A stretch of 64,000 bases of DNA, taken from assembly GCA_017644185.1 (NCBI GenBank), contig JAEPMA010000002.1, positions 186,001 through 250,000 on the forward strand. The letters are read 5' to 3'. Shown here one piece after another: positions 2,816-12,073 of the stretch. A program made the position numbers and the translations under genes. How positions within the stretch are numbered: the first letter of the stretch is position 1; every line of letters starts with the position of its first letter. Origin of the DNA: Rhodospirillales bacterium. Its GTDB lineage: Bacteria; Pseudomonadota; Alphaproteobacteria; Rhodospirillales; Casp-alpha2. The notes beneath the pieces are model-generated. The model was not told the origin of the DNA and did not search any database. It saw nothing but the letters and a program-made list of their open reading frames with translations.

Positions 2816-4159
2816 ATGCAACTCATCATTGTCGGAACACTGGACGGACAGATCGGCGCAGCCAGCCAGATCGCGATCAAGCGTGGTGCGAAGGTGCAGC
2901 AGGCCGACACCCTGGAAGATGGTCTCGATCTCCTGCGGCGTTCGGGCGCCGATTTGGTGATGATCGACGTGGTGCTGGAAGTGGCGGATTTCATGGCGGC
3001 AATCGAGGCTGAACGGATAAACGTTCCGGTGGTTGCGTGCGGCGTCTCCAACGATACCCAAGCCGCCGTCCGCGCGGTTCGTGCCGGCGCCAAGGAATAC
3101 GTGCCCCTGCCCCCGGATCCGGAACTGATTGCCGCGGTATTGGAAGCCGTCACCGAGGATCAGCACGCGCTGATCTTCAAAGATCCGAAAATGGCGGAAA
3201 CGGTGAAGATGGCGACGCAAATCGCACCGTCTGAGGCGAGCGTTTTGATCACTGGGCCATCCGGCACCGGTAAGGAAGTACTGGCGCACTACCTGCATTC
3301 AAAATCCAAGCGCAAGGATCGCCGCTTCGTCGCGGTTAACTGCGCGGCCATCCCTGAAAATCTTCTGGAATCCGAACTGTTCGGCCATGAAAAAGGTGCC
3401 TTCACCGGCGCGGTGGCGCGGCGTATCGGGAAATTCGAGGAAGCCGACGGCGGCACGATTCTGCTCGACGAGATCTCGGAGATGGATGTTCGGTTGCAGT
3501 CCAAACTGCTGCGGGTCATCCAGGAACGTGAGGTAGACCGCATCGGCTCCAATAAGCCGGTCCCGGTCAACGTCCGCATCATCGCGACGTCCAACCGCAA
3601 TATGGAACAGACCGTCAAGGAGGGGGGCTTCCGTGAAGATCTTTATTTCCGTCTCAATGTCGTCAACCTGCGGCTGCCACCGCTGGCAGAGCGTCCGGGC
3701 GACGTGATGCCCCTGGCCCGCCATTTCGCGACAAAATACGCCGATGCCAACGACGTACCGCAGAAGCCGATTTCCGAGGACGCTCAGAAAAAGCTGGCGA
3801 CGTACCACTGGCCCGGCAACGTACGTGAGTTGGAGAACACCATGCATCGGGCCGTCTTGCTGGCGGCCGGCGATGAAATCGACGCCGCAGCAATTCTGCT
3901 GACGTCCGAAGACGGTGCCACTTCGGCAGCCGCCGGAAACGTTGGCGAAGACGGGGCACAGGCGCTTGTCGGACGGACCGTTGCAGATGTCGAACGCGAA
4001 TTGATCATCGATACGCTGCAGCATTGCCTGGGGAACCGGACGCACGCAGCGAATATCCTTGGCATCTCGATCCGTACACTGCGGAACAAACTGAAGCAGT
4101 ACGGGAACGAGGGGTTCAACATTCCCTCGCCGGGCGACGCGTCGCAGGCCGGGGCGTGA
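2816..4159 (+). CDS. flbD: Sigma-54-dependent flagellar transcription activator, FlbD-like
   Basis: The 447 residues comprise a receiver-like domain (1-120), a sigma-54 AAA+ domain (about 130-370) and a Fis-type helix-turn-helix (about 395-435, NRTHAANILGISIRTLRNKL). The AAA+ part has Walker A GPSGTGKE and the sigma-54 contact loop GAFTGA. The receiver is degenerate: the acidic pair near residue 8 is missing (IIVGTLDG), and the usual KPF lysine is replaced in EYVPLPP, though Asp51 (VMID) remains. This pattern fits FlbD, which switches on class III/IV flagellar genes without ordinary phosphorylation. It sits between motA and flhA, as in related genomes. Confidence 0.85.
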   Translation: MQLIIVGTLDGQIGAASQIAIKRGAKVQQADTLEDGLDLLRRSGADLVMIDVVLEVADFMAAIEAERINVPVVACGVSNDTQAAVRAVRAGAKEYVPLPPDPELIAAVLEAVTEDQHALIFKDPKMAETVKMATQIAPSEASVLITGPSGTGKEVLAHYLHSKSKRKDRRFVAVNCAAIPENLLESELFGHEKGAFTGAVARRIGKFEEADGGTILLDEISEMDVRLQSKLLRVIQEREVDRIGSNKPVPVNVRIIATSNRNMEQTVKEGGFREDLYFRLNVVNLRLPPLAERPGDVMPLARHFATKYADANDVPQKPISEDAQKKLATYHWPGNVRELENTMHRAVLLAAGDEIDAAAILLTSEDGATSAAAGNVGEDGAQALVGRTVADVERELIIDTLQHCLGNRTHAANILGISIRTLRNKLKQYGNEGFNIPSPGDASQAGA

Positions 4160-4195: not shown

Positions 4196-6319
4196 ATGGC
4201 TGAAGCCGGCGGCGGCGAAGTCACCACTCTAGACACCGGACAGTTTTTCCGCGACCGGCTGGCTGCTGCTGCCAAGCGCGGCGATATCATGCTGGCGCTG
4301 GGTGTCGTCGCGATTCTGGTCGTTTTGATCCTGCCGATGCCGCGCTGGCTGCTGGATTTCTCGCTCGCGTTCTCGATCACCTTTTCGGTGCTGATATTGA
4401 TGACGGCGCTGTTCGTGGAACGGCCCCTGGATTTCAACGCTTTTCCGACCATTCTGTTGCTCGCGACCATGATCCGGCTGTCGCTGAACCTCGCGTCGAC
4501 ACGCCTGATCCTCGCCGACGGACATGAGGGGACGCACGCCGCAGGTCAGGTGATCGAGGCCTTCGGCGGCTTCGTCATGGGCGGCAATTTCGTGATCGGC
4601 ATCATCGTTTTTGCGATCCTCGTGATCGTCAACTTCGTCGTCATCACCAAGGGCTCCGGCCGTATCGCCGAAGTTTCCGCCCGGTTTTCGCTGGATGCTA
4701 TGCCTGGCAAGCAGATGGCCATTGACGCCGACCTGTCGTCCGGCTTGATCGACGAGGAAACGGCCAAGACGCGTCGGAAGGAACTTGAAGAAGAAAGTTC
4801 GTTCTTCGGTGCCATGGACGGTGCCGCTAAGTTCGTGCGCGGCGACGCCGTTGCCGGTCTGCTGATAACTTTTATCAACGTCATTGCCGGCATGATCATC
4901 GGTGTTGCCCAGCAGGGCATGTCATTTGGCGCCGCCGCCGACACGTATACCCGGCTGACCGTGGGGGACGGTCTGGTATCGCAAATTCCGGCACTGATCG
5001 TCTCGACCGCGGCAGGTATGGTGGTCACGAAAGCGGGTGTCGCGGGCACGGCCGAAGTCGCAATCTTCCGCCAAATGGGCGGCCAACCCAAAGCGCTCGG
5101 ACTGGTCTGCTTCCTACTTCTGGCCCTGGCAATCCTGCCCGGCATTCCTGCAATTCCGTTCCTTACCCTGGCGATGCTCTGCGGTGGCGGTGCCTACTTC
5201 GTACACTGGCGCAACAAGACCGCCGCCGAGGAAGCGGTCAAACAGCTCGAAGAAGAAAAGGTCGACCCCAAAGCCATTGCCGATGAGCCGATCTCGACCG
5301 CGCTCAAGATCGACCACATCCGTCTGGAACTGGGTTACGGTCTGTTGACGCTCATCAACGCGCCCAAGGACGGTCAAAAACTGACCGATCAGATCAAGGC
5401 GCTCCGCCGCCAGCTTGCCGCCGAAGTCGGGTTCGTCATGCCTTCCGTCCGCATTCAGGACAACATGCAATTGCCCGCCAACGTGTACGTCATCCGAATC
5501 AAGGAAATCGAAGCCGGACGAGGCGAGCTTCGACCCAATATGCTGCTCGTGATGGACCCCCGCGGTGAGGAAATCTCGCTTGCCGGTGAAAAAACCACCG
5601 AACCCACCTTCGGCCTGCCGGCCATGTGGATAGAAGAGGCAAACCGCGAAGAAGCCCTGTTCCGCGGCTATACCGTCGTCGACCCGGCAACCGTGGTAAC
5701 CACCAATATCACCGAGTTGATCAAGGACAATATGTCGGAACTGCTCTCGTATTCCGAAACGCAGAAGCTGCTGGACGAAATCGACAAGGATCATCAGAAG
5801 CTGGTCGCCGATATCATTCCGTCGCAAATTTCTCTGGGCGGGATTCAACGTATCCTGCAGAACCTGCTGGCCGAACGTATCTCGATCCGCGATCTGCCGA
5901 CGATCCTGGAAGGCGTGTACGAGGCCTGCGGCAACACCCGGAACGTGATGATGATTACCGAGCACGTTCGCGCGCGCCTTGCCCGTCAGATTTCCAATAT
6001 GAACACCAACGACCAGGGCTTCATTCCCTTGGTCACGCTCTCGCCTGGTTGGGAACAGACATTTGCCGAGAGCCTGGTGGGTCAGGGCGAAGACCGCCAG
6101 CTCTCAATGCCGCCGACCAAACTTCAGGAATTCATTACCCAACTCCGCAACACCTTCGAGCGCCAGGCCATGATGGGCGAACAGCCAGTGTTGCTGACCA
6201 GCCCGACAATCCGTCCGTTCGTCCGCTCCATCGTCGACCGCTTCCGCCCGATGACGGTGGTCATGTCGCAAAACGAGATATACCCTAAGGCAAAGATCAA
6301 GACGGTCGGCCAAATCTAG
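4196..6319 (+). CDS. flhA: Flagellar biosynthesis protein FlhA
   Basis: FlhA is the large export-gate subunit of the flagellar type III secretion system. The N-terminal half (to about residue 345) has about eight membrane segments and the FHIPEP-family signature region RPLDFNAFPTILLLATMI followed by RLSLNLASTRLIL. The C-terminal half is the cytoplasmic substrate and chaperone docking domain, ending YPKAKIKTVGQI. The length of 707 is normal. The ATG at 4196 follows AGGGGG, 36 bases after the activator gene. Confidence 0.96.
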   Translation: MAEAGGGEVTTLDTGQFFRDRLAAAAKRGDIMLALGVVAILVVLILPMPRWLLDFSLAFSITFSVLILMTALFVERPLDFNAFPTILLLATMIRLSLNLASTRLILADGHEGTHAAGQVIEAFGGFVMGGNFVIGIIVFAILVIVNFVVITKGSGRIAEVSARFSLDAMPGKQMAIDADLSSGLIDEETAKTRRKELEEESSFFGAMDGAAKFVRGDAVAGLLITFINVIAGMIIGVAQQGMSFGAAADTYTRLTVGDGLVSQIPALIVSTAAGMVVTKAGVAGTAEVAIFRQMGGQPKALGLVCFLLLALAILPGIPAIPFLTLAMLCGGGAYFVHWRNKTAAEEAVKQLEEEKVDPKAIADEPISTALKIDHIRLELGYGLLTLINAPKDGQKLTDQIKALRRQLAAEVGFVMPSVRIQDNMQLPANVYVIRIKEIEAGRGELRPNMLLVMDPRGEEISLAGEKTTEPTFGLPAMWIEEANREEALFRGYTVVDPATVVTTNITELIKDNMSELLSYSETQKLLDEIDKDHQKLVADIIPSQISLGGIQRILQNLLAERISIRDLPTILEGVYEACGNTRNVMMITEHVRARLARQISNMNTNDQGFIPLVTLSPGWEQTFAESLVGQGEDRQLSMPPTKLQEFITQLRNTFERQAMMGEQPVLLTSPTIRPFVRSIVDRFRPMTVVMSQNEIYPKAKIKTVGQI

Positions 6320-6336: not shown

Positions 6337-7323
6337 ATGCGCCTCAGAAACTTCAACGCCCCGACGATGTCAGAAGCCATGGCGCTGGTACGCGCTGAGA
6401 TGGGTGATGACGCGATCATCGTCTCCACCGACGTGGATGACGACGAGGGCGTCTGCTGGGTCACGGCAGCGCTCGAAGACGACATCGTCCTCCCCGATGA
6501 GGTCTTCGAGGCGTCCGAGACGCAACCGATGCCCCCCCTCGCCCGGCGTGAGTTTCTGGCACAAGTGCTGACCGCACACGGTCTTCCTCAACACCTGACC
6601 GAGCAGGTCCTCCGGGACTGCGATCTCGTCGACGAGACCGATCCCGTGATGACACTCGCCGCCGCCATCGACATGGGCGCCCAATTTCGCCCCATTGATT
6701 TCGATACTCAGAACCGTCCGCTGATGCTGGTGGGCCCGCCCGGGGCAGGTAAAACGATTACTGCGGCGAAGCTTGCCGCGCATGCACGTTTCGCCGGCAA
6801 ACGCGTATTCATCGCCACGGCCGACAGCAAGCGCGCCGGCGGCGTCGAACAATTGAAGGCGTTCACGGATATTCTAGAGATGGACCTGATTACCGCGCCG
6901 GATGTCGACTCACTTGCCGAACAAAACGATGCGATTTCAGCTGCTGATGCGGCGATAATCGACACCGCAGGCGTCAATCCGTTCGACGACGAGGATATGC
7001 AGGCGCTCCGCACACTTGCCGCCTCTGCCGGCGCAGAATTAGTGCTGGTGCTGCCCGCCGGTGCGGATGCCATGGAATCCGCCGATACAGCCCGTGCCTT
7101 TGCCGCGATCGGTGCAGAGCGGATGGTCATCAGCCGCCTCGACATGACCCGGCGGCTTGGCGGCATCCTTGCCGCCGCATTGGCGGGCCGCGTTGCGATC
7201 GCTAATGTGTCCGTTAATCCACAGGTCGCAGACGGCCTCAGCCGTATCAATCCCGTTTCACTGGCTCAACTCCTCGTCCCAAATGACGAAGACGAGCCGA
7301 TCCAGAAAAAGGCCGCCCAATGA
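6337..7323 (+). CDS. flhF: Flagellar biosynthesis GTPase FlhF
   Basis: FlhF is an SRP-type GTPase that sets flagellar position and number. The N-terminus MRLRNFNAPTMSEAMALVR is the usual FlhF start. The G domain begins near residue 125 with MLVGPPGAGKTITAAKLAAH, then ATADSKRAGGVEQLKAF, IIDTAGV and SRLDMTRRLGG in place of the typical TKLD motif. At 328 residues it is on the short side because the linker between N-terminus and G domain is brief. Its TGA overlaps the ATG of flhG, so translation is probably coupled. The DTAGR motif reads DTAGV here. Confidence 0.88.
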   Translation: MRLRNFNAPTMSEAMALVRAEMGDDAIIVSTDVDDDEGVCWVTAALEDDIVLPDEVFEASETQPMPPLARREFLAQVLTAHGLPQHLTEQVLRDCDLVDETDPVMTLAAAIDMGAQFRPIDFDTQNRPLMLVGPPGAGKTITAAKLAAHARFAGKRVFIATADSKRAGGVEQLKAFTDILEMDLITAPDVDSLAEQNDAISAADAAIIDTAGVNPFDDEDMQALRTLAASAGAELVLVLPAGADAMESADTARAFAAIGAERMVISRLDMTRRLGGILAAALAGRVAIANVSVNPQVADGLSRINPVSLAQLLVPNDEDEPIQKKAAQ

Positions 7324-8120
7324 GCGAAACGTCTCCCGTCACCCCCGATCGCCCCGCCCGCACCAAGGGCAATATCATCGCCGTTGCTTCCGGCAAGGGC
7401 GGTGTCGGCAAGACTTGGTTTTCGATCACGCTGGCGCATTCGCTGGCAATGGTCGACCGGCGTGTTCTATTGTTCGATGGCGACCTCGGGCTCGCCAATA
7501 TGGACATTCAACTGGGGCTCGCAACCCGGACCGATCTTGGCGCCGTGCTGGCAGGCCGCGCAAGCCTGGCGCAAGCCGTGGGCTATTGCGACGACGGCGG
7601 GTTCGATGTCATCGCCGGACGATCCGGTTCGGGTGCACTCGCCAACTTAGCGTCGAACAGATTGCAATCGTTGCTCGACGAACTGGCGCTTTTAGCGGCG
7701 AATTACGATTACGTGATCCTCGACCTGGGCGCCGGCGTCGAGAGCACCGTACGCCGTCTGGCCTATGCCGCCGATCAGATCATCGTCGTCGTTACGGATG
7801 AGCCGACCTCACTCACGGATGGTTATGCGTTCATTAAGATCGCACACAACGAACGCCCGGAAACCACCATCAAGGTCGTCACCAACATGGTCAATTCCAC
7901 GACCGAGGGTGAACGCACCTACAACACCCTCAACAAGGCCTGCCAGGGCTTCCTCAAGTATTCGCCCGAACATCTCGGCATCGTACGACGAGACGACAAG
8001 GTCCGGGCTGCAATCCGTGCTCAACAGTCGATCCTGAATCGTGCCCCCGACAGCGCTGCGGCAGAAGACGTGAAACAGATCGCGCGCCGCATCAGGCGCG
8101 GCAGTGCGGCCGGCGTATGA
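7320..8120 (+). CDS. flhG: FlhG/MinD-like ATPase controlling flagellar number
   Basis: This 266-residue ParA/MinD family ATPase has the deviant Walker A SGKGGVGKTWFSITLAHSLA, the switch region LLFDGDLGLANMDIQLGL and Walker B YDYVILDLGAGVE. FlhG (also called FleN or YlxH) works with FlhF to limit flagellar number. The ATG overlaps the flhF stop as ATGA, and its own stop overlaps the next ATG in the same way, so the three genes form a coupled set. Confidence 0.9.
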   Translation: MSETSPVTPDRPARTKGNIIAVASGKGGVGKTWFSITLAHSLAMVDRRVLLFDGDLGLANMDIQLGLATRTDLGAVLAGRASLAQAVGYCDDGGFDVIAGRSGSGALANLASNRLQSLLDELALLAANYDYVILDLGAGVESTVRRLAYAADQIIVVVTDEPTSLTDGYAFIKIAHNERPETTIKVVTNMVNSTTEGERTYNTLNKACQGFLKYSPEHLGIVRRDDKVRAAIRAQQSILNRAPDSAAAEDVKQIARRIRRGSAAGV

Positions 8121-9754
8121 GCGAGGTTGCGCCCCCCTCACCCACGCCGCCGCCTGCCGGACAGGCGGCCCTCTCTCGTTTGACCGTCACTCAGGTCCCG
8201 CCGCAACTACTCGAATTGGCGGCTGGCAGCAAATTGGATGTACTTGTCACCGCCCTTGCCGATGCCGCCGAGCTCAAACTTACGAGTAGGCTGGGTGACA
8301 TCGCCGTAAATCTGCCGCCGAATGCTCAAAGCTCTTTCAAGCCCGGTGACGCCCTGATCCTGCAACTCGTCACTAAGGGCGCCATACCCAAAGTTCTGCT
8401 TACCAGTCCCGACGGCAAACCTGTGACGTTCTCGAACTCGGCCGCCACGAACACAGCTTCAACCGGCCCAGCTTCTTCCCCCGCCACGGTTCAGGTATCT
8501 TCCACAACGGGCCAGCAGATTGCGCCGGGGGTATTGGTAGGCGCCACCTTGATTCGTCCAATAACGCTCAATCCCCAACAGGTCCTACAAATCCCCGGGC
8601 AATCCGCCGCAACGCTTCCAGGGACCGCTAAACCTTCGAACCAACCCGGACCCGGCCTCAGCGCCGCCGCGCCCGCGACAAGCATTCCGGGGCAGCCACA
8701 AACAACGACAGCCCCTGGTCAAAGCACCAACGCCACGCCGACGGCGGGCACCCAGACTCAAACCCCGCCAAGTCTGACGACATTTCCTGCGGGCAGCACC
8801 CTGCAGATCAGAATTATCGCCGTCGACGTCCCCATCGGTGCGCCGCAACGGTTGGTACCCCCGCCGCCGTCGGGTCAGGTATCCCTCGCCGCCGGCGCAC
8901 AACTCACCGGGGTTGTCGGTGGCAATCACGGGACCGGGCAAACGCTGGTGCAAACCCACGCAGGCCCTGTAACGCTCCCCACAACGCAACCGTTACCGCC
9001 GGGAGCGGAAATCCGTTTCGAGATCGTTTCACTGCAGGCACCAACGAGTGGGACGGCGCAACACGGACTTATGCACGGCGCTCAACCGATCCTGGACGGC
9101 GACTGGTCCACCTTCGAAGACGCGTTGAGTACGCTCCGCGATATCGCACCGGGGGCACACCAGCATATCGTTCAAAGCGCGCTTCCACGCGCTGATGCAC
9201 AGCTCGCTACGAACGTGCTGTTCTTCCTGTCCGCGCTCAGGGGCGGCGATATCAAAAACTGGCTCGGGGACGGCCCGATGCGGATTCTTGACCGCACCCG
9301 CCCCGAACTTGCTGCCCGGATGCGCTCGGACATGGCACAGATGACCCGCACCGTTGACGACCCCGCATCCGGCGAATGGCGTCTCATGGGCGTCCCCGTC
9401 CTCCACGGCAGCGAGCTCGACCGGATCCAGATGCTTCTCCGAGACCGAGACGCCGGTGACGATGAAAACGAAGAAGACAAGGACAGCACACGCTTCGTGG
9501 TTGACCTGAACCTAAGCCGCCTCGGGCACCTGCAGATCGACGGGTTGGTTGGCGACAAGAACAAGCGCCTCGACATGGTTCTCAGGACCGATGAGCCGCT
9601 CCCGGCGCGCATGCGAGAGGACATACGCCGGCTTTTTACCGACGCGCTCGACGTGACGGGGCTTGAGGGCTCCGTCGGCTTCCAGGCCGCGCCCGGAAAA
9701 TTCGTCAACATCCCGAAGCGCAGCCCCGGGACCGCCGGCGACGTGTTGGCCTGA
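8117..9754 (+). CDS. FliK-like flagellar hook-length control protein
   Basis: The 545 residues have the layout of hook-length or type III substrate-switch proteins. The N-terminal region is followed by a long Pro/Thr/Gln/Gly-rich low-complexity centre (about residues 95-290), then a compact C-terminal domain (about 440-530) containing FVVDLNLSRLGHLQIDGLV and an RFT-type stretch PLPARMREDIRRLFTDAL, as in the FliK C-terminal domain. The start overlaps the flhG stop (ATGA). FliK measures hook length and switches export specificity. The call rests on domain layout and context, because FliK sequences diverge strongly. Confidence 0.7.
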   Translation: MSEVAPPSPTPPPAGQAALSRLTVTQVPPQLLELAAGSKLDVLVTALADAAELKLTSRLGDIAVNLPPNAQSSFKPGDALILQLVTKGAIPKVLLTSPDGKPVTFSNSAATNTASTGPASSPATVQVSSTTGQQIAPGVLVGATLIRPITLNPQQVLQIPGQSAATLPGTAKPSNQPGPGLSAAAPATSIPGQPQTTTAPGQSTNATPTAGTQTQTPPSLTTFPAGSTLQIRIIAVDVPIGAPQRLVPPPPSGQVSLAAGAQLTGVVGGNHGTGQTLVQTHAGPVTLPTTQPLPPGAEIRFEIVSLQAPTSGTAQHGLMHGAQPILDGDWSTFEDALSTLRDIAPGAHQHIVQSALPRADAQLATNVLFFLSALRGGDIKNWLGDGPMRILDRTRPELAARMRSDMAQMTRTVDDPASGEWRLMGVPVLHGSELDRIQMLLRDRDAGDDENEEDKDSTRFVVDLNLSRLGHLQIDGLVGDKNKRLDMVLRTDEPLPARMREDIRRLFTDALDVTGLEGSVGFQAAPGKFVNIPKRSPGTAGDVLA

Positions 9755-9770
9755 GGACGGAGAGCATAAC

Positions 9771-10148
9771 TTGGACGACAACGACAATATTCGCCGCCGC
9801 CGCGACGTGCTGGAGACATTGCCGGCTCCACACCCGCGGCATGACGCCGTCGTGGTAATGGAGAACGACTGCATGGGGGCGAAACTTCGTCTGCGCTACG
9901 TACCGGACCGGGACGTGCTCAAGCCTGAAAGCCTGAGCCGCTATGTCGGCACTTTGGCCAAGCTCCCGTTCTCCAGCCTTGAGGAAACAGCACAAACGAT
10001 CCTCGAAGACATCAACGATCAGGTGATACCCAATTGGATTGAGGTAACTTTAAGCCGATCCGGCCCGGACATGCGCCACGAAGTGCGTGTCGAGGATCGC
10101 CAGCCGAACTGGAAGGAACGCGGGCTTTTGGACCGGCTGGCACCTTAA
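9771..10148 (+). CDS. QueF-like (T-fold) protein without the catalytic loop
   Basis: This 125-residue protein probably starts at the TTG at 9771, which follows GAGGACGGAGAG; an upstream in-frame start would run back into the FliK-like gene. Compared from memory with type I QueF (7-cyano-7-deazaguanine reductase), it keeps DVLETLPAPH (QueF DVLESFPNKH), YVPDRDVLKPESLSRYV (QueF YIPD...SKSLKLYL) and EETAQTILEDINDQV then PNWIEV (QueF HEDC...DPRYIEV). About 11 residues are missing where QueF has its catalytic Cys and Asp loop (SLCPKTGQPD). I infer a T-fold protein with no nitrile reductase activity. Its place as last gene of the flagellar run suggests a flagellar link, not queuosine synthesis. Confidence 0.55.
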   Translation: MDDNDNIRRRRDVLETLPAPHPRHDAVVVMENDCMGAKLRLRYVPDRDVLKPESLSRYVGTLAKLPFSSLEETAQTILEDINDQVIPNWIEVTLSRSGPDMRHEVRVEDRQPNWKERGLLDRLAP

Positions 10149-10249: not shown

Positions 10250-10684
10250 TCATTTGATCTTACTGGACTGACGCCGATTGTACTGGGTGATGCCGATCTC
10301 ATCGAGTTCGCTCTGCTCATCGCGTTCGAGCTCGGCCTCGATGCGCGCAACACGCCGGTTTTCGGAGATTTCGTACTTCTTGAATTCCAGAAATGCGACT
10401 CTTAACTCTTCGCGCGCATCCTCGACTTCGCGCTCTTGGCGAGCGATCCGCTCTCGGTACTCCTCGCGCCGGCGAATGGCATGCTCGGCATAGGGGCCAT
10501 AGAGGATGCCACCTTCGGTCGGCATGCTGGCAGCATGCGCCTGTTCTTGCTTGATCTCTTCCTCAAGTGCTTCCAGCAACCCGATGAGGTTCTCGAGCTG
10601 ACGAAGTTGTTCGGCGAGAATTCGGCGTTTCTGATCCACTTCCCAATCATTGAGCCGCATAAGCGCCTTGAAGTCTTTCGCCAT
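10250..10684 (-). CDS. fliJ: Flagellar export chaperone FliJ
   Basis: The 144-residue protein is almost entirely charged alpha-helix and predicted coiled coil (KALMRLNDWEVDQKRRILAE, later RRREEYRERIARQEREVEDA). Size, composition and position directly after fliI match FliJ, the stalk-like protein that activates the FliI ATPase ring and escorts export cargo. It begins 6 bases after the fliI stop. Sequence conservation in FliJ is low, so the call depends on the operon as well as the coiled coil. Confidence 0.82.
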   Translation of the reverse strand: MAKDFKALMRLNDWEVDQKRRILAEQLRQLENLIGLLEALEEEIKQEQAHAASMPTEGGILYGPYAEHAIRRREEYRERIARQEREVEDAREELRVAFLEFKKYEISENRRVARIEAELERDEQSELDEIGITQYNRRQSSKIK

Positions 10685-10690
10685 CTAGAC

Positions 10691-12073
10691 TCACCTGCCA
10701 TCATCTTCAGGCGCGGCGCCGCCAACCGCTGGATCACCAGTGTCACCCTGCATGCCGAGCAGGTCGTAGAGTTGCTGGTAGCCCTCCGCAAGCGTCGGGT
10801 TCTCGCCAATTTCCTGGGATAGATAATCCTCAAGCTGATCGTAGTATTGGATCGCTTCGTCGACAGCGGCGTCAGACCCACGCCGGTAGGCGCCAAGGCG
10901 GATCAACTCCGCCATATCTTCGTAGGTCGCCAGGAGCTTACGCGCCCGCACGATCGCGGCGTTCTGGGATGGGGTATTACATGCCGGCATCGTTCGTGAA
11001 ATGCTTTTGAGGACGTTGATCGCCGGGTAACGGTTACGCTCCGCGATTTCACGCTCCAGCACCACGTGTCCGTCCAGAATACCGCGTACGGCGTCAGCAA
11101 CCGGTTCATTGTGGTCATCGCCTTCGACCAAAACGGTGAATAGCCCGGTGATGTCACCCTGCCTGCCGTGCCCCGGCCCGGCGCGCTCAAGCAATTTCGG
11201 AAGTTCCGCGAACACCGACGGCGTATACCCCTTGGATGCCGGCGGCTCGCCCGACGAAAGGCTGATTTCGCGCTGTGCCATGGCGAAGCGCGTAACGCTG
11301 TCCATCATGCACAGAACATTCTTTCCCTGATCTCGGAAATATTCGGCCACCGCGAGCGTCACGTAGGCGGCCTGACGGCGGACCAGCGGCGGCTCGTCCG
11401 AGGTGGCGAGGATCACGACGGTGCGCTTCATCCCTTCCTCGCCCAGGTAATCCTCGATGAACTCTTTCGCTTCCCGGCCGCGCTCACCGATGAGGCCGAC
11501 GACACTGATCTCTGCGTCCGTATTGCGCGCCATCATCGACAGCAAGGTCGATTTGCCGACGCCGGAGCCGGCAAATATCCCCATGCGCTGGCCGCGGCAG
11601 GTGGTCAGGAAGGTATTCATCACCCGCACGCCGAGGTCGACCTTCCCGCCGACGCGGCGACGTTTATGCGCGGGCGGCGGACCGGCATGGATCTGGTACG
11701 GCTTCATGCCGCTCTCGATGGGCCCCATATCGTCGAGCGGCTCGCCGAATGCATTGATCACCCGGCCCAGCCACGATTGATCAGGATAAATAGAGGGTTC
11801 CGTCGACGCGAGCTCTGCCTGGCAGCCAAGGCCGATGCCGTCGAGCGAGCCGAACGGCATAACCAGCGCCCGCCCCCCCCTGAAACCGATGACTTCACAG
11901 ATGACGTAATGCCCCTTACGCCCGTCGACACGCACGTGATCGCCAATCGAAAGCGTGCCTTGCAGCCCGCCGATCTCGACCATCAGGCCGACGATATCGG
12001 CGACGCGCCCGAATACTTGATGATCCGGCAAACGCGCGACCGCGTTGGCGATATTATTGGAAAATACCCGCAA
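10691..12073 (-). CDS. fliI: Flagellum-specific ATP synthase FliI
   Basis: This 460-residue F1-beta-like ATPase powers unfolding and export of flagellar subunits. It has Walker A FAGSGVGKSTLLSMMA, GLIGERGREAKEFIED, Walker B with VLCMMDSVTRFAMAQREI, and the family signature GEPPASKGYTPSVFAELP. It starts at TTG 12073 behind a GGGACGGGGAA ribosome site; no ATG or GTG lies upstream before an in-frame stop. It forms a two-gene operon with fliJ, convergent with the fliG-flhG run. Confidence 0.95.
   Translation of the reverse strand: MRVFSNNIANAVARLPDHQVFGRVADIVGLMVEIGGLQGTLSIGDHVRVDGRKGHYVICEVIGFRGGRALVMPFGSLDGIGLGCQAELASTEPSIYPDQSWLGRVINAFGEPLDDMGPIESGMKPYQIHAGPPPAHKRRRVGGKVDLGVRVMNTFLTTCRGQRMGIFAGSGVGKSTLLSMMARNTDAEISVVGLIGERGREAKEFIEDYLGEEGMKRTVVILATSDEPPLVRRQAAYVTLAVAEYFRDQGKNVLCMMDSVTRFAMAQREISLSSGEPPASKGYTPSVFAELPKLLERAGPGHGRQGDITGLFTVLVEGDDHNEPVADAVRGILDGHVVLEREIAERNRYPAINVLKSISRTMPACNTPSQNAAIVRARKLLATYEDMAELIRLGAYRRGSDAAVDEAIQYYDQLEDYLSQEIGENPTLAEGYQQLYDLLGMQGDTGDPAVGGAAPEDDGR

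Follow-up and report, generated by a model that had tools for sequence, protein, structure and literature searches.

Unimodular QueF, the preQ0 reductase (structures 4F8B, 4FGC and 5UDG), is a T-fold enzyme. To our knowledge, every T-fold protein described to date is an enzyme; a non-catalytic one would therefore be new. Passages of the QueF literature (PMC5372742) describe the T-fold as two strands, two helices and two strands, and list as criteria for QueF Cys55, Asp62, Glu97 and the QueF motif, calling non-QueF the sequences that lack any one of them. The same passages report that Glu97 anchors preQ0 and that its change to Gln raises the KM of Bacillus subtilis QueF 280-fold. The archaeal QueF-Like protein (archaeosine synthase, 5JYX) is related to QueF and has a different function; according to passages of PMC5485725 it has acquired new chemistry, acts as an enzyme on tRNA and keeps the Cys and the Asp. 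On the flagellar side, PMC11620751 describes FipA, a gammaproteobacterial factor for FlhF-dependent polar flagella. It shows that accessory proteins can act together with FlhF, and for the family reported here it is a functional precedent only. The Rhodospirillum centenum genome paper counts six genes of unknown function among the flagellar clusters, and its Flagella section describes no protein resembling this family (PMC2890560). Full-text searches, which leave most subscription papers outside their coverage, found no description of it either.

Here, we analysed a 64,000-nucleotide stretch of a Rhodospirillales genome (the window; G000:C22:186001-250000 in its own genome) and named QFL the family of the open reading frame at 9771-10148. 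With moderate confidence, we regard QFL as a QueF-derived T-fold protein that serves as a non-catalytic accessory factor of the FlhA-FlhF-FlhG-type flagellum in Alphaproteobacteria.

The gene, its neighbours and its homology to QueF

The QFL gene (9771-10148, forward strand) encodes 125 amino acids. It starts with TTG at 9771 and ends with a stop codon at 10146-10148 after 125 codons. A GGAG lies 8 bases 5' of the start, and 16 bases separate the start from the stop codon of the gene before it. The forward strand upstream encodes a FliH-like protein (133-1560; NF004692, 4e-40, below cut-off), FliN (1581-1973; TIGR02480, above cut-off), a MotA/PomA-type stator protein (1982-2788; NF006527, 3.3e-72, below cut-off), a sigma-54 activator, of FlbD/FleQ type by position (2816-4159; PF00158, 240 bits), FlhA (4196-6319; PF00771, 872 bits), a FlhF-type SRP GTPase (6337-7323; PF00448, 3.2e-25; the best TIGR03499 match of the genome, below cut-off) and a MinD/ParA ATPase named FlhG-type by position (7320-8120; PF13614 and PF01656, above cut-off). 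Convergent with QFL, the reverse strand encodes a FliJ-like protein (10250-10684; TIGR02473, 4.1e-9, below cut-off) and FliI (10691-12073; TIGR03498, above cut-off).

Directly 5' of QFL lies a gene for a 545-aa protein (8117-9754, forward strand) that matched no Pfam or NCBIfam family (best Pfam E no better than 0.8) and no PDB entry. The 19 rows of its C-terminal family share no Pfam family. The earlier note had called this neighbour FliK-like, which found no support: hhalign against four PF02120 FliKs gave 0.6% (any kinship would be very distant), and the PF02120 FliK of this genome lies some 10 kb ahead of the window (C22:175681-175926). The 545-aa protein is a second uncharacterised family of the flagellar cluster, and its identity as FliK is unproven.

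QFL is homologous to unimodular QueF. Profile searches bore out the comparison made in the earlier note. Pfam PF14489 (QueF-like) gives the window protein 28.3 bits (E 2.1e-6), above its curated cut-off of 27.3, and NCBIfam TIGR03139 (preQ1 synthase) gives 24.3 bits, far under its cut-off of 86.9. Among the orthologues in relatives, we read the 49 for which DNA was fetched, omitting a copy with a stop (L008), and built an alignment of 44 of them (A1), from which five near-duplicates were dropped, P0001 standing for L005. At E ≤ 1, PF14489 matches 40 of these 44 orthologues, three of the 40 scoring 21.2-24.0 bits, below the cut-off. A profile-profile comparison, hhalign of A1 against 24 canonical QueFs, gave 98.3% (E 1.4e-14) over 111 columns. 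The A1 profile also found the B. subtilis QueF structures (4f8b, 4fgc, 5udg; E 2.6e-5 to 1.7e-4), matched archaeal QueF-Like distantly (5JYX, E 0.0033), and matched weakly GTP cyclohydrolase I (FolE; E 0.063), a T-fold relative but an enzyme. In a tree of 81 QFL and 26 QueF sequences, which has few columns and long branches and is unrooted, the two groups are parted by a branch with 100/100 support. A phmmer search of the single protein against the PDB returned only response regulators, at chance level, and we rejected them as kin.

The T-fold of QFL rests on this homology to proven T-fold proteins, the QueF structures. AlphaFold models of the window protein, alone and with a 91% identical sister, have low confidence (pLDDT 52 and 49). 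Both run helix-strand-strand-helix-helix-strand-strand-helix, which contains the strand-strand-helix-helix-strand-strand order of the T-fold, at a confidence too low to carry weight. Foldseek found no match at E ≤ 0.001; the weak rows for GTP cyclohydrolase and uricase, none of which reaches this threshold, were set aside as evidence.

Active-site positions and conserved residues

QFL and unimodular QueF have in common the 111 aligned columns, the YVPD and P.W motifs and a glutamate. QFL differs from QueF in lacking the catalytic Cys, an Asp at a fixed place, the NADPH motif E(S/L)K(S/A)hK and RGG, and in having a new C-terminal motif and a flagellar context. The loop of the window protein is shorter: from DA/DY in the first strand to YVPD it has 17 residues, against 28 in the QueF of its own genome, i.e., 11 fewer, in agreement with the figure of about 11 in the earlier note. 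As the note had also claimed, the catalytic cysteine is lost. The column of Cys55 (B. subtilis numbering) holds C in none of 81 QFL (69 have a gap) and in all 26 QueF. In the column of the general acid/base aspartate (Asp62), which is gapped and loosely aligned, D occurs in 6/81 QFL and 26/26 QueF. The first Lys of the NADPH motif is K in 4/81 QFL and 26/26 QueF; at the second, K falls outside the eight commonest letters of QFL and is present in 26/26 QueF. The joint alignment has no conservation of RGG or ESKSLK in QFL, and the His preceding the Glu is kept in 3/81 QFL, against 25/26 QueF.

None of the columns that at least 80% of the 81 QFL conserve is a Cys, His or Lys. The nearest cysteine of the window protein, in NDCMGAKL, had been described as misplaced. 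We rejected it as a displaced catalytic Cys, since the Cys of NDCMG is present in the 91% identical sister and absent from a 72% identical orthologue, with 17 of 81 orthologues having a Cys somewhere in this stretch. By the published criteria (PMC5372742), QFL is not QueF. With the nucleophile and the cofactor motif lost, we infer that QFL does not reduce preQ0.

The substrate glutamate behaves differently from these residues. The column of Glu97, E71 in the window protein (9981-9983), holds E in 78/81 QFL and 26/26 QueF and is invariant in A1. Since this residue anchors the substrate in QueF, its retention suggests that QFL may still hold a purine-like ligand, a suggestion based on one residue that is possibly structural.

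The other conserved features are QFL's own: R10-R11, P45-D46, Y58, D80, W89 and a C-terminal EDRQPxW.N..LL. R10-R11 (9798-9803) is invariant in the 44 rows of A1 and kept in 76/81 and 70/81 sequences of the larger set. The C-terminal motif (E108-W114, EDRQPNW, 10092-10112) is family-specific and lies past the region of the QueF RGG; P112 is present in 81/81 sequences, W114 in 78/81 and Q111 in 76/81. QFL is under purifying selection: dN/dS was 0.03 to 0.36 in seven of eight pairs, several with dS near 2, and in the eighth dS was saturated and gave no usable value.

Distribution and genomic context

A search with the single sequence covered 100 relatives from the genus, family and order, own genome included, and matched 65; the A1 profile matched 65 of the 100 at 71 bits or more. 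One match in a Rhodospirillales MAG was treated as identical to G005, and the counts take L006/L036 only. A second class of matches in the relatives, which by their 20-41 bits are canonical QueF, is confined to columns 7-94. In a sample of the class, taken to be Alphaproteobacteria on the strength of this MAG and of Azospirillum, QFL was found in 36 of 387 genomes (at least 43 bits, with the match reaching column 119 or beyond), of which 33 belong to 21 families outside the order of the window. The margin at the low end is narrow, since the best canonical QueF observed scores 41.7 bits against the 43-bit rule; the four weakest members (L133-L136) also adjoin flagellar genes. A 23-bit candidate (L137) retains the QueF residues, and we left it out of the counts. 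In a sample of the phylum, 17 of 397 genomes matched at E ≤ 1e-8, ten of them outside the class; the four of these ten that we inspected (L147-L150) were rejected as canonical QueF, and the other six score 36-38 bits. We also left uncounted a 23-aa frame (G105:C151:6182-6244) that matches the QFL C-terminus over 21 columns and is perhaps a contig-edge fragment or a remnant.

Three of the 65 copies in relatives are broken by in-frame stops (G006, L008; G023, L166; G034, L167), and another genome has a QFL remnant (G028, L168). These four copies adjoin flagellar genes, and their relatives have intact ones.

Most of the QFL relatives have a canonical QueF elsewhere. In the genome of the window, PF14489 matches three places: a canonical QueF (154 aa, 107.8 bits) away from the flagellar locus, the window gene, and FolE (below cut-off), encoded by a gene of its own (PF01227, 249.5 bits). 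The canonical QueF adjoins an ORF of the PTPS family (QueD-type, 138.5 bits) and a 211-aa radical-SAM ORF, just under cut-off with 28.5 bits, which we read as QueE. With the A1 profile, 53 of the 65 QFL relatives have a second match in the range of canonical QueF (by score, inspected in part). PF14489 adds six of the other 12, each with a QueF of more than 100 bits, which brings canonical QueF to 59 of the 65. Among the remaining six are G072, G076, G085 and G091, which are at least 93% complete and keep QFL; neither A1 nor PF14489 found a canonical QueF in them.

We fetched 80 neighbourhoods (L035-L074, L105-L144), of which all except that of L137 hold QFL. At least one flagellar marker is present in 78 of these 79 loci. 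The exception is L129 (G160, QFL at 5757-6239), where the roughly 5.5 kb flanking QFL on each side contain none and FlhA is encoded on another contig. The earlier note had proposed a flagellar factor linked to flhF and flhG; this linkage is kept far beyond the order of the window, and the homologues, none of which has the QueF cysteine, sit with flagellar and not with que genes. The usual order is FliN, MotA, sigma-54 activator, FlhA, FlhF, FlhG, 545-aa family and QFL, followed by the convergent FliJ and FliI, which are present at 53/79 loci. The nearest upstream marker is the 545-aa family in 67/79 loci and FlhG or a joint FlhF/FlhG frame in seven (L121-L125, L128, L130). Of the other five loci, L053, L073 and L129 have no upstream marker, and in L136 and L138 the contig begins nearby. 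At L130 (G190), the FlhF and FlhG profiles match one open frame directly 5' of QFL, as if fused.

QFL co-occurs with FlhA. Among the 100 relatives, 62 have both, three only QFL, 17 only FlhA, and 18 neither; the three with only QFL are assemblies 63-83% complete, and the 65 QFL genomes include the three broken copies. FlhA is thus present in 62/65 QFL relatives against 17/35 others (Fisher 1e-7, uncorrected for relatedness), and in the class sample in 34/36 QFL genomes against 194/351 others (Fisher 7e-7, equally uncorrected). PF00771 can match type III secretion too. TIGR03499 (FlhF), with matches in 385/387 genomes, fails to tell FlhF from other SRP GTPases and was excluded from these counts. 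One genome of the same genus (G001, 98% complete) lacks both QFL and FlhA.

FlhF and FlhG occur also in genomes without QFL, and by the 43-bit rule 194 of the 228 FlhA-positive genomes of the class sample lack it. Seven relatives keep the neighbouring flagellar genes and lack QFL (L151, L154, L157, L159, L160, L161, L164). In the rest of the 17 FlhA-positive relatives without QFL, its absence is unsure: seven loci break near flhG or the next gene, where the contigs end (L152, L153, L155, L158, L162, L163, L170), two are not decisive (L156, L169), and one genome (G002) has the place outside the loci fetched. Since some flagellate lineages have no QFL or broken copies, QFL is not needed for every flagellum.

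Possible roles of QFL

The loss of the catalytic parts and the association with flagellar genes make QFL probably a helper of flagellum building or placement. QFL would descend from a unimodular QueF-type ancestor through loss of the catalytic loop, of the NADPH motif and of RGG, and would now serve the primary flagellum (FlhA-FlhF-FlhG type) as a dedicated accessory factor, acting by binding and without preQ0 reduction. Its subunits would probably form a T-fold-type ring, with the kept glutamate probably still binding a ring of purine or pterin type where the subunits meet. The C-terminal motif probably docks on a flagellar partner, likeliest FlhF/FlhG or the export gate, and the docking would tune when, where or in what number flagella are assembled. 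We guess the partner from gene order: FlhF and FlhG are its likeliest identities because they are nearest upstream in the seven loci without the 545-aa gene.

A more specific form of this account makes QFL a ligand-sensing pseudoenzyme, a T-fold ring with a kept purine pocket that reports a nucleotide or deazapurine (e.g., GTP, c-di-GMP or preQ0) to FlhF/FlhG and so sets the number, place or timing of polar flagella; we entertain it tentatively. QFL could instead be a pure scaffold or assembly chaperone that binds no small ligand, with its glutamate serving folding or the packing of the oligomer. All other tested features of the QueF active site are gone, and the strong QFL-specific conservation is outside the old pocket, at R10-R11 and the C-terminus, which speaks for a scaffold. 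Yet the residue kept in nearly all sequences is the one that passages of PMC5372742 describe as holding the substrate, and we consider a pure scaffold unlikely. That same glutamate, the diversity of reactions carried by T-folds and the precedent of archaeal QueF-Like (PMC5485725) would agree with an enzyme of new chemistry on another purine or pterin. However, QueF-Like retains the Cys and Asp, of which QFL has neither, and the columns most conserved in QFL offer no Cys, His or Lys, which makes new chemistry quite improbable.

The gene next door suggests yet another role, that of a specific partner or chaperone of the 545-aa protein. Its family is the usual nearest upstream marker, and in Azospirillum lipoferum 4B, where both genes are annotated 'hypothetical protein', they overlap by four bases. 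Against such a dedicated pairing, a neighbour-profile search of ten QFL genomes, seven of them chosen because the family was missing beside QFL, found it in G000 and G342 only and not in the other eight (G398, G253, G332, G458, G290, G423, G190, G160), and the seven relatives that lack QFL in an otherwise kept locus retain the 545-aa gene. We find this role very doubtful. That QFL is an ordinary QueF, or a decaying copy of it left beside flagellar genes by chance, is hardly credible: it passes the Pfam QueF cut-off, and three copies in 65 are broken, but dN/dS is low, residues are conserved over 81 divergent sequences, the context is flagellar in all loci save one, and most of the relatives carry a canonical QueF elsewhere.

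If the accessory-factor reading is true, the flagellar gene set of many alphaproteobacterial families includes, in QFL, a conserved component that still lacks a name, and the fold of a tRNA-modification enzyme has been recruited to an organelle. For annotators, QFL is a warning that the Pfam QueF cut-off can be passed by a protein without the residues for QueF chemistry. The role of QFL is directly testable, since it is present in the culturable, plant-associated Azospirillum. On plasmid AZO_p2 of A. lipoferum 4B, the usual gene order is kept up to QFL (AZOLI_RS19705) and is followed by antiporter genes, not by FliJ-FliI. A. brasilense Sp7 carries its orthologue on plasmid ABSP7_p1. Twelve plasmid records match a QFL orthologue, all of this genus.
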